A DNA stretch of 59,502 nucleotides. It comes from Bacillota bacterium. GTDB lineage: Bacteria > Bacillota > Sulfobacillia > JAJZYS01 > JAJYTV01. The DNA lies in contig JAJYTE010000011.1 in NCBI GenBank assembly GCA_021793215.1, forward strand, positions 1 to 59,502, written 5' to 3'. The position numbers and the translations under genes are program-made. The notes under the pieces are model-generated. The model saw only the letters and a list, made by a program, of their open reading frames with translations, ran no database searches and was not told the origin of the DNA. This document shows, in pieces, positions 20,780-30,357 of this stretch. Within the stretch, counting starts at the first letter, position 1. The number at the start of each line of letters is the position of its first letter.

Positions 20780-21829
20780 TCAGTCCTGGCGCGCCAGGAA
20801 GTCCGCGAGCCGCTCCATGAAGAGCGTCTGGTGCTCGATGTGCGGCGAGTGGCCGCAGTTCTCGAACACCGCTTCCTCGTAGTGTCCTCCACGCACCCGG
20901 TAGCCGTCGAGCACCGCGCGCATCTGGGAGACCATCGGCTGCGGTGGGAAGACATCCTCTCCGGGCCAGCCGGGAACTGCCCCCACCTGCCCGAGCGTGC
21001 CGAAATCGAGGAGGGAGGAGTCCGAGACGATCTGGTCGTCGGCGCCGCGCAGCCAGAGCACCGCCGGCTTCGGCGAGACGTCCACGAACCCTGAGAGATT
21101 GCAGTAGTTCGGCGCCATCGCGTTGTTGATCCCCCGCGTGCCCGGAGCGACGCCCGGCCAGTTCGGTGACGGCTTCAGGTCCCCGGGGTAGAAGTCGTCG
21201 CCGGAGCACATCTTCACCATCTCGGCGACGAAGGTGTCCTCACGCGCCGGCTGGGCCCGGAACGGGGGCTTGAAGTAGAACTGGTTCATCACGCTGCGCG
21301 GCGAGAACGGGCTCTCCTCGCCGAGATCCTTCTCCCGCAGGCGCTGCACGTACTCCGGGTTCGAGGAACCGCCGCCCGAACCCGCGCCGTCGGGGTAGCA
21401 GATCGTACCCTCCGGACCCTTCGTCCCGCCGAAGCCGAAGGGCGAGAGCGGGCTCTCGAGCGCCAGCGAAAGAACGCGTTCCGGGTGGTCGATCGCGTAC
21501 TGCAGCGCGACGCCGCCCCCCATCGACCAGCCGACGAGGTGCATGCGCTCCACTCCGAGCGCCGCGCGCAGCGCTTCGACGTCATCCGAGAAGTCCCGCA
21601 GCCCGCGCGTCGCGTCGATCGGCTTCGCCTCACACTCCCCGTAGCCGCGCAGGTCGGGCGCCACCGCGCGGTAGCGCGCGGGCATCGCCTCGAGCACCTC
21701 CCGCCAGAACGCGGCGGAGGAGACGTTGCCGTGCAACAACCAAGCCGGTACGCCGTCCTCTGGGCCCGCTTGCAGCGTGCGGGTCGCGATCCTTTGCGTC
21801 CTCACCAAAACCTCCTGAACGCGTGCCAT
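20780..21829 (-). CDS. Alpha/beta hydrolase, last gene of the liv-tetR-KAS III operon
   Basis: The 349-residue alpha/beta hydrolase has WLLHGNVSSAAFW, APDLRGYGECEA and nucleophile elbow VGWSMGGGVALQYA (Ser near 105). There is a long cap insertion (about residues 130-240), an Asp in WLRGADDQIVSD and His in NCGHSPHIE. The insertion, with YPDGAGSGGGSSNPEY, is unusual and may define substrate choice. The ATG follows GGAAGAGAG. It lies 17 nt after the preceding hydrolase gene, so it should be on the same mRNA. Its role could be ester or thioester hydrolysis of the compound imported by the operon's ABC transporter (inference). Confidence 0.83.
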   Translation of the reverse strand: MARVQEVLVRTQRIATRTLQAGPEDGVPAWLLHGNVSSAAFWREVLEAMPARYRAVAPDLRGYGECEAKPIDATRGLRDFSDDVEALRAALGVERMHLVGWSMGGGVALQYAIDHPERVLSLALESPLSPFGFGGTKGPEGTICYPDGAGSGGGSSNPEYVQRLREKDLGEESPFSPRSVMNQFYFKPPFRAQPAREDTFVAEMVKMCSGDDFYPGDLKPSPNWPGVAPGTRGINNAMAPNYCNLSGFVDVSPKPAVLWLRGADDQIVSDSSLLDFGTLGQVGAVPGWPGEDVFPPQPMVSQMRAVLDGYRVRGGHYEEAVFENCGHSPHIEHQTLFMERLADFLARQD

Positions 21830-21846
21830 CTCTCTTCCCCCTCTCG

Positions 21847-28433: not shown

Positions 28434-29137
28434 GCGAGCGCCCCCTCCTCCCCCAGGTAGGCGAGGCGAACCTTGGGATCCCTGACGACCTCCTGCGGCT
28501 GGCCCGCCGCGATCGTGCGGCCACCGTCCAGGACGCTTAGGCGGTCGACCAGTGAGAGCGTCCACTCGAGGTCGTGTTCGACCACAAGCAGCGTGCGCGC
28601 GTCATCGCGCGCGGCGCGCAGAAGGTGCGAGAGGTCCCGCCGCTCCACCTCGGTCAACCCGGCCGCGGGCTCGTCGAGCAGCAGCACGGGGCTGCCCTTC
28701 GCGAGCGCCAGGGCCAGTTCCACCTTGCGGGCGACGCCATGCGGCAGCGCCATGGGAAACGATGCGAGCCACCCTCCGAGGCCGAACGCCTCGACCCACT
28801 GCCCGCCTCGCGCGGCGGGGTCCACCAGCGCGAGGTGCTCGCTGATCGTCAGCGTCGCGAAGAGCTGCGTGCGCTGGAAGACGCGGCCGAGGCCGGCGCG
28901 CGCCCTGGCGTCCGCGCTGCGGGCACTGACGTCCCGCCCTAGGAGGGAGATGCGTCCGGCACTCGGGCGCAGCAGACCGGTCAGCAGGTTGAAGACCGTC
29001 GTCTTGCCGGCGCCGTTCGGGCCGATCAGACCGTGGATCTCGCCCCGGGCGATCCGGAGCGAGAATCCCTCCACGGCCGTCACGCCGGCGAAGCGCCGCA
29101 CGAGACCGTCGGCCTCCAGCGCCGGCGAGGCGCTCAC
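28430..29137 (-). CDS. livG: ABC transporter ATP-binding protein LivG
   Basis: The 235-residue ATPase has Walker A GPNGAGKTT near 41, the LivG-type GRVFQRTQLFATLTISEHL, and Walker B LLLDEPAAGL. The signature motif is degenerate: LPHGVARKVELA stands where LSxGQ is expected. LivG family members usually show LPYGxQR, so the change is small. The GTG overlaps the livK stop (GTGA). Slightly short in its central region compared with E. coli LivG (255). Confidence 0.9.
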   Translation of the reverse strand: MSASPALEADGLVRRFAGVTAVEGFSLRIARGEIHGLIGPNGAGKTTVFNLLTGLLRPSAGRISLLGRDVSARSADARARAGLGRVFQRTQLFATLTISEHLALVDPAARGGQWVEAFGLGGWLASFPMALPHGVARKVELALALAKGSPVLLLDEPAAGLTEVERRDLSHLLRAARDDARTLLVVEHDLEWTLSLVDRLSVLDGGRTIAAGQPQEVVRDPKVRLAYLGEEGALA

Positions 29138-30357
29138 TGCGCCGGCGGTGCGCTCGCCTGCGCCGAGACGGTCTCGATCAGCGTCGGCACGGCGTAGCCC
29201 GCGGTCTGGTTCCAGACGAGCTTCACGACGTACATCGGCTGCAGTGCCTGGTGGTCCGTGGACCGGATGGTGATCGGGCCCTTCGGACCGTCGATCGTCA
29301 TTCCCGTCAGCGCCTTCGTCAGGTCGGAGGCCTTCGTGTCGCCGGCCTTCTGGAGCGCCTGCACGATCGCTTGGCCGGCCGCGAACGAGGTTCCGGAGAA
29401 GAGGTCCGGCGGCGCCTTGTAGGCCTTCTCGTACTGCGCGACGAGGTACTTGTTCGCGGCGTTGTGGGCCAGCGTGTAGTAGTAGTCCGTCACGCCGACG
29501 AAGCCGTTGTCAGACTTTCCGAGCGCCGTGAGGCCGTTGTAGCCCCCGATCGCCCCGATGACCGTCATCTTGCTGTAGAGGCCGGCCTGCGCCATCTGCT
29601 GGAAGAGCGCGATCGCCCCGACGCCGGCCCAGGTGACGACGAGCTCCTTCGGCAAAGGCTTCAGGCTGAGGATGTGGTCGATGTAGGACGTGAAGTCGGT
29701 CGCCGTGATCGGTGCGTAGGTGACGCCCGCGTTCGTGGCGCCCGCGTTCGTCAGGGCGGCTGCCCAGTCCTTCACGCTCGACGTGCCGAAGACGTAGTTC
29801 GGCGCGAACTGGTAGAACGTGACGCCGCTTGCGCCGCCGTGCTGCTGCAGGTACGCGGCGTAGGATGCCGCGTACATGTAGGTGTTCGCCGCCGTGCGGA
29901 AGACGTACGGGTTCAGGTAGGTCGTCGTGAGGTCGTCGTCCGCCGCCGGATCGATCACGAGCGGCACCTTGTACTGGCCTGCGAGCTGTTCCATCGGGAT
30001 GGCAACGGCGCTGTCGGCCGGCCCCTGCACCATCGCGACGTGGTCGTTGAGGATGAGGTCCTTCATGGCCGCTTCACCGGTCGCCGGGTCGCCCTTGGAG
30101 TCGCGGAAGATCAGGTTGATCTTGCGGCCGTCCACCTTGTTCGTGCCGTGCGTCGCGTAGGCGACGCCGAGCTTCAGCCCGCGCACCTCCTGCTGGCCAT
30201 AGTCCTGGAGCGGACCCGAGATGGACGTCACGACCCCGATGTCGATCGGACCCTTGGGCGCCTGCGACTGCGTCGAGACCGCGGAACCGCAACCGGACGC
30301 GAGCAGCAGAGCCGAGACCGCGGGAACCGCGATCCGCCAACCGCGTGGAGCTGCCAA
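29134..30357 (-). CDS. livK: Substrate-binding lipoprotein of Liv-type ABC transporter
   Basis: The 407-residue extracellular binding protein starts with a lipoprotein signal: hydrophobic AVPAVSALLLASGC with a lipobox LASGC, Cys near residue 23. Its mature part is a type I periplasmic-binding fold of the leucine/amide-binding family (Peripla_BP_6): DIGVVTSISGPLQDYGQQ near the start and VTFYQFAPNYVFGTSS midway. The TTG start has GGAGG 8 nt upstream. It is first in the ten-gene operon. The substrate is undetermined; the downstream ligase suggests a carboxylic acid. Confidence 0.9.
   Translation of the reverse strand: MAAPRGWRIAVPAVSALLLASGCGSAVSTQSQAPKGPIDIGVVTSISGPLQDYGQQEVRGLKLGVAYATHGTNKVDGRKINLIFRDSKGDPATGEAAMKDLILNDHVAMVQGPADSAVAIPMEQLAGQYKVPLVIDPAADDDLTTTYLNPYVFRTAANTYMYAASYAAYLQQHGGASGVTFYQFAPNYVFGTSSVKDWAAALTNAGATNAGVTYAPITATDFTSYIDHILSLKPLPKELVVTWAGVGAIALFQQMAQAGLYSKMTVIGAIGGYNGLTALGKSDNGFVGVTDYYYTLAHNAANKYLVAQYEKAYKAPPDLFSGTSFAAGQAIVQALQKAGDTKASDLTKALTGMTIDGPKGPITIRSTDHQALQPMYVVKLVWNQTAGYAVPTLIETVSAQASAPPAQ

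Follow-up and report, generated by a model that had tools for sequence, protein, structure and literature searches.

The 59,502-nucleotide (nt) window analyzed here, the forward strand of contig JAJYTE010000011.1 from a Bacillota bacterium (GenBank assembly GCA_021793215.1; 2.74 Mb in 87 contigs), contains a run of ten minus-strand genes (30357 to 20780), all confirmed as present. These genes encode, in this order, LivK, LivG, LivF, LivH and LivM, a TetR-family regulator, a KAS III homolog, an AMP-forming acyl-CoA ligase and two alpha/beta-hydrolases (Table 1). The start codons were re-chosen from the reading frames together with Shine-Dalgarno sequences, which placed the starts of livF, the KAS III gene and the gene of hydrolase 2 at GTG 28433, CTG 25250 and ATG 21829, respectively; the longer alternatives for livF (28565) and hydrolase 2 (21922 and 21850) were dropped in favor of starts with a Shine-Dalgarno sequence. 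The shorter KAS III starts, GTG 25220 and ATG 25193, were rejected because the family model matches residues upstream of them; no ATG, GTG or TTG covers the N-terminus, which the model matches from 25235, and CTG 25250, preceded by the strong Shine-Dalgarno sequence ggggaggtaagg, is the most likely start. With these starts, the first five junctions, from livK onward, are overlaps of 4, 4, 4, 11 and 4 nt; the sixth and seventh are gaps of 4 and 12 nt, the eighth is an overlap, of 4 nt with a TTG start or 1 nt with an ATG start, and the last is a 17-nt gap, the largest in the operon, so that the initial annotation of this locus, which had described overlaps or gaps under 20 nt, was literally correct. 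Closely related genomes retain the arrangement at 53-84% protein identity, which argues against a chance juxtaposition.

The promoter immediately before livK is the sole sigma-70-like hit in 20600-31500 (10.9 kb), where 0.3 would be expected, and the nearest relatives L002 and L003 conserve its -35 and -10 boxes along with the bases after the -10 box. A dyad, TGACAAGTGACTCACCTGTCT, lies between the -10 box and livK. Its consensus, TGAC-N2-RTGA-N-TCAY-N2-GTCA, occurs with at most 3 mismatches near the starts of the TetR, LivK, ligase or KAS genes at 24 of the 32 loci that encode both KAS and TetR (29 sites near such starts compared with 13 elsewhere in 2.04 Mb), and the variants alter both arms jointly (RTGA/TCAY vs CTGA/TCAG). 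Bare dyads of equal quality (8/10 arm positions) are present in 101 of 400 random 110-nt windows, and the case for an operator therefore rests on conservation across loci rather than on symmetry; from this conservation, we infer that the dyad is the operator of the TetR protein of the cluster. A 22-bp perfect palindrome, GGCCGGACGAATTCGTCCGGCC, with a single copy of its core in the window, lies at 30492-30471. It was considered as the operator and rejected because L002 and L003 do not conserve it; more likely, it marks where the upstream enoyl-CoA hydratase unit ends. The enoyl-CoA hydratase gene is found upstream of livK in L002 and L003 as well and looks like a transcription unit apart from the operon; in these two relatives, visual inspection of the sequence places a hairpin with a T-rich tail behind it. 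Elsewhere, BTAD/TPR regulators of about 1,090 amino acids lie beside KAS clusters, often instead of TetR (L012:1782-5039 and most Bacillales loci).

Table 1 Features of the operon and its upstream region (positions in the window)
Feature	Position	Strand	Remarks
Promoter TTGACA-N16-TATAGT	30416..30443	-	Just before livK; 11/12 consensus matches
Dyad, presumed TetR site	30389..30409	.	Unique in the window at <=3 mismatches
livK, substrate-binding protein (Peripla_BP_6), TTG start	29134..30357	-	PF13458 231.6 bits; nearest solved structures 3n0x/3nnd
livG, ATPase	28430..29137	-	PF00005 and PF12399; PRK11300 LivG best model
livF, ATPase, GTG start	27732..28433	-	PF00005; UrtE/LivF models among best
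livH, permease	26860..27735	-	PF02653
livM, permease	25866..26870	-	PF02653
TetR-family regulator	25255..25869	-	PF00440; ScbR, FadR, FasR ~57 bits each; no NCBIfam model over cut-off
KAS III homolog (PRK06840), CTG start likely	24237..25250	-	NF005308 443.7 bits (curated cut-off 315); AlphaFold2 FabH fold
AMP-forming acyl-CoA ligase	22701..24224	-	PF00501 and PF13193; PRK06187 366 bits, under cut-off; nearest solved structures 8weu/8wev
Alpha/beta-hydrolase 1 (GHSMGG)	21847..22704	-	PF12697; 53-71% identity in nearest relatives L001-L003
Alpha/beta-hydrolase 2 (GWSMGG), distant PhaZ relative	20780..21829	-	Best match in structure and sequence 8ynv
Crotonase-type enoyl-CoA hydratase, separate upstream unit	30511..31284	-	PF00378 234 bits; PRK05809 312 bits, under cut-off

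The linkage between the KAS III homolog and the importer was examined in 398 genomes of the window's phylum and 111 genomes of the phylum of L016, taken as Deinococcota because L016 is a Trueperaceae genome. The family to which the window enzyme belongs by score, NCBIfam PRK06840 (NF005308), is present in 37 of the former and 54 of the latter. Within the window's phylum, Liv genes were identified within 10 kb of PRK06840 in 34 of 40 neighborhoods, compared with none of the 20 control loci of canonical FabH from the same groups; four of the six neighborhoods that lack Liv genes encode a sodium:solute (SSF) symporter. The clusters of L062, L066, L070 and L090 have an SSF symporter in place of the Liv importer and are otherwise alike. 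Among the 62 long loci, 57 encode an importer and 57 an acid-activating enzyme (a ligase in 39, a CoA-transferase in 22, both in 4), that is, the two modes of activation are almost mutually exclusive. All 20 loci fetched from Deinococcota contain KAS and ligase genes together with Liv genes, and 17 of them have MaoC between the hydrolase and LivK, which gives the order KAS-ligase-hydrolase-MaoC-LivKHMGF. The initial annotation had proposed a search of genomes for co-occurrence of the KAS III homolog with Liv genes and named separation of the enzymes from the transporter in relatives as the outcome that would speak against it; the co-occurrence was found, and such a separation is not the pattern in these genomes. 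With the linkage preserved in both Bacillota and Deinococcota, the module is ancient or widely transferred.

The transporter has the composition of a HAAT/Liv-type ABC importer, with a Peripla_BP_6 protein, two BPD_transp_2 permeases and two ATPases. Branched-chain amino acid import is the usual annotation of this transporter family, and the operon could accordingly be taken for an ordinary importer of this kind, cotranscribed by chance with unrelated lipid genes. This explanation is hardly credible: the linkage is conserved in two phyla, the branched-chain model PRK15404 yields only 56.3 bits on LivK (cut-off 477), and the alpha-amino contacts of LivJ are lost. Specifically, LivK retains Ser79 of LivJ, which we take to contact the carboxylate, whereas Thr102 and Glu226, presumably the alpha-amino contacts, are replaced by Ala and Gly in the window protein and are lost in all 18 LivK members compared; because these contacts are lacking, simple branched amino acids are unlikely ligands. 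A precedent comes from Rhodopseudomonas palustris, where, in the portion of the study considered here, binding proteins of the Liv type have fatty and dicarboxylic acids as ligands rather than branched amino acids, and several take aromatic acids (PMC3223731). Some of these proteins are encoded beside CoA ligases and thus resemble the present case in binding acids without an amino group; the same portion mentions no KAS III enzyme with the Liv-type importers (PMC3223731).

The AlphaFold2 model of the KAS III homolog (pLDDT 92) adopts the FabH fold, with 2ebd as the nearest structure (TM 0.85). The Cys-His-His active site noted in the initial annotation is right in essence and consists of Cys106, His251 and His279 (numbered from GTG 25220), where His251, which falls one residue off FabH His244 in the alignment, is assigned as the second triad residue by motif. 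Comparison of 76 PRK06840 members with 21 FabH sequences showed that the position of the catalytic Asn of FabH is occupied by His (His279 in the window) in all 76, and that 66 members have a Cys nucleophile and the other 10 a Ser. Thus, the family shares with FabH the fold and, in most members, the Cys nucleophile, but it lacks the Cys-His-Asn triad, and the fabH model gives 70 of 292 bits on the window enzyme. The basic acyl carrier protein (ACP)-docking patch of FabH is not preserved either: Arg249 is Ser in 74 of the 76 members (97%), and the 256/257 pair is not conserved, with Lys214 retained. The CoA-contacting Trp32 is lost. PRK06840 is annotated as a 3-oxoacyl-ACP synthase, which implies fatty acid synthesis; the genome context, including the Liv linkage shared by relatives, and the lost ACP-docking Arg disfavor such a role. 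The clade of the window enzyme is sister to a clade of Deinococcota and gammaproteobacterial enzymes (support 0.999). Nine of the 10 enzymes with a Ser nucleophile group together in a separate clade (support 0.78); this second, Ser-His-His clade is mostly accompanied by its own TetR and ligase genes in front (L004:4243-5250, L006:3926-4936, L060 and others).

The adjacency of a KAS III-like enzyme, a ligase and an alpha/beta-hydrolase, three superfamilies that are likewise combined in OleABC, along with the presence of OleA structures among the fold matches of the KAS III model, might suggest biosynthetic condensation leading to a beta-lactone or olefin, with KAS III as OleA, the ligase as OleC and the hydrolase as OleB. 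This assignment, very improbable in our assessment, was rejected on model scores: PRK09258, which we take to be the OleA-type model, scores 22.6 bits on the window enzyme compared with 443.7 bits for PRK06840. Moreover, the operon encodes no OleD-like reductase, unlike OleABCD, and the importer and the depolymerases of relatives indicate catabolism.

These depolymerases, together with a dehydrogenase, point to polyhydroxybutyrate (PHB) and its constituent 3-hydroxybutyrate. In Bacillales, the hydrolase behind KAS III belongs to the PhaZ family, with scores of 445.6 and 353.5 bits that exceed the cut-off of 300, and matches 8ynv with 297.6 bits. The PhaZ family (NF050089) exceeds its cut-off in 20 of the 398 genomes of the window's phylum, of which 18 (12 of 14 genera) also encode the KAS, and in 15 genomes the two lie within 20 kb of each other; the Fisher p-value for co-occurrence, 4.6e-19, is overstated by relatedness. 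Secreted PHB depolymerases of the 8daj type (8daj being, we presume, the Lihuaxuella PHB depolymerase) were identified at five loci in two phyla, four of them adjacent to a cluster (L009, L013, L014 and G438) and one within the operon itself (L124; NF050058, 260.6 bits; cut-off 150). The L014 protein scores 385 bits to 8daj, and those of L009 and L013 fall in the same homolog cluster; among the 398 genomes, a secreted PHB depolymerase is encoded in one, 7 kb from its KAS. Where its end is seen, the Deinococcota operon closes with a 3-hydroxybutyrate dehydrogenase (TIGR01963, over cut-off in L118 with 334.6 vs 307), homologs of which, at 67-96% identity, are found in 11 further loci. In L012, the KAS cluster is followed by isocitrate lyase and malate synthase, as expected if acetyl-CoA is the product, and AceK is encoded upstream of the cluster in L016. 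A putative secreted class-2 lipase with weak similarity to PhaZ7 (23 bits) over most of its length lies by the cluster at L054:10405-11616 and also in L008, L058 and L066.

In the window itself, hydrolase 2 is closest in structure to the Bacillus thuringiensis PhaZ 8ynv (ranks 1-5), with the qualification that the model has three low-confidence segments and the underlying alignment contained PhaZ sequences; 8ynv is also its best PDB sequence hit (74 bits). Orthologs of hydrolase 2 are present in the KAS clusters of L008, L031 and L082. The source genome encodes, elsewhere, a 3-hydroxybutyrate dehydrogenase (TIGR01963 over cut-off, 342), and neither a polyhydroxyalkanoate (PHA) synthase (PF07167, TIGR01836) nor a PF10503 depolymerase was found in it, a combination that fits a scavenger of soluble fragments rather than a polymer maker.

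Taken together, these observations suggest, with a probability that we put at roughly 55%, that the operon is responsible for the import and catabolism of short 3-hydroxyacids, of which (R)-3-hydroxybutyrate and its oligomers are the most likely, with the substrate of the window's operon read from its relatives. Under this scenario, PHB fragments would be released by other cells or by secreted depolymerases, and LivKHMGF would take in the acid or oligomer; the alpha/beta-hydrolases would cleave oligomer esters; a dehydrogenase, which relatives encode within the operon and this genome at another site, would convert 3-hydroxybutyrate to acetoacetate; and the AMP-forming ligase, or the CoA-transferase in other lineages, would form the CoA thioester. 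The Cys-His-His KAS III would then act on the thioester, most likely substituting for a thiolase in the CoA-dependent splitting of acetoacetyl-CoA to acetyl-CoA, and TetR would repress the operon through the dyad between the -10 box and livK. The route from hydroxybutyrate oligomers to acetyl-CoA would be complete, provided that KAS III works as a thiolase. The scheme of the initial annotation, whereby an external acid is imported, activated and then condensed or cleaved, is thus retained with respect to import, CoA activation and a step catalyzed by a condensing-type enzyme; C-C chemistry by KAS III is conjectural.

The reaction of the KAS III enzyme is a guess. A thiolase-like activity is a tentative first choice, weakened by the ordinary thiolase that some clusters carry. 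The next possibility, which we consider unlikely, is acyl transfer or thiolysis of oligomer esters, by analogy with CerJ and DpsC, which are KAS III-fold acyltransferases; the Ser-type clade would fit such a role. Decarboxylative condensation appears equally doubtful. It is tempting to speculate that PRK06840 is a new catabolic class of the KAS III fold, comprising Cys-His-His enzymes and a sister clade with Ser-His-His, whose reaction is the cleavage of 3-ketoacyl-CoA or the thiolysis of hydroxybutyrate oligomers, and that it forms the core of a cross-phylum system of PHB scavenging with its own ABC importer and, often, its own TetR.

Several observations weigh against the assignment to 3-hydroxybutyrate. 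A normal thiolase is also encoded at 7 loci, and the Bacillales dehydrogenases score as FabG, not as 3-hydroxybutyrate dehydrogenase. The operon in the window contains neither a 3-hydroxybutyrate dehydrogenase nor a depolymerase of the PhaZ or 8daj kind found in or by the clusters of relatives; hydrolase 2, although structurally closest to PhaZ, has extra segments and scores 105.8 bits against the PhaZ cut-off of 300, below the level of an intracellular short-chain-length PHA depolymerase, and a PF10503 depolymerase is absent from the source genome. Hydrolases of the PhaZ type could have other ester substrates, and the ligase is closest not to an acetoacetyl-CoA synthetase but to 8weu/8wev, which were deposited as fatty-acyl- and feruloyl-CoA synthetases. 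The sampled genomes are also related, such that the counts overstate independence.

The affinity of the ligase bears on two other classes of substrates. Its place in the long-chain FadD group, FadR and FasR among the best models of the TetR protein, the crotonase gene upstream of the operon and the fatty and dicarboxylic acids bound by the R. palustris proteins (in the portion cited above, PMC3223731) are all compatible with an operon that takes up and activates fatty or dicarboxylic acids of medium or long chain length, similar to the R. palustris pimelate system, with KAS III shortening or elongating chains. However, no acyl-CoA dehydrogenase family was found to recur in the clusters, the recurring genes being instead those for PHB depolymerases and 3-hydroxybutyrate dehydrogenase, and we regard this explanation as rather unlikely. 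Still less probable is uptake of aromatic (hydroxycinnamic or benzoic) acids followed by side-chain cleavage through the CoA thioester. The proximity of the ligase to 8wev, deposited as a feruloyl-CoA synthetase, a weaker similarity of LivK to the binding proteins 4ey3 and 4evq, and the aromatic ligands of several Liv-type binding proteins (same portion, PMC3223731) would agree with it, but no aromatic-ring gene family is found among the recurring neighbors, and the linked depolymerases do not fit.

Among the open-access literature searched, no paper names PRK06840 or describes its linkage with Liv genes. The initial annotation presented the locus as a candidate new system; indeed, the component parts are known, and the combination, undescribed in that literature, and the KAS III role appear new, but the locus is not a one-off, being instead one instance of a module widespread in relatives. 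That annotation contained neither the PHB depolymerase and dehydrogenase clue nor the TetR operator, and did not include the exchange between ligase and CoA-transferase or between Liv and SSF transporters. PHB serves both as a storage polymer and as a commercial bioplastic, and little seems to be known about bacterial uptake of its fragments; the words “transporter” and “uptake” are both absent from a 2025 review on PHA biodegradation (PMC11893044). If the assignment to PHB fragments is valid, it identifies an importer dedicated to them, along with a regulator, the operator of that regulator and a catabolic KAS III-fold family, and would correct the fatty acid synthesis annotation of a family present in about one-tenth of the genomes sampled from one phylum and half of those from another.

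Farther from the operon, the window encodes, at 17349-19491, a FabF-like ketosynthase (plus strand) by a divergent SDR and, farther on, a glyoxalase-family protein and a small hydrolase, with no link to the operon as far as tested. On the other side, at 32890-36418, lie genes for a 1,004-amino-acid molybdopterin oxidoreductase and a DUF1641 protein, which are formate-dehydrogenase-like.

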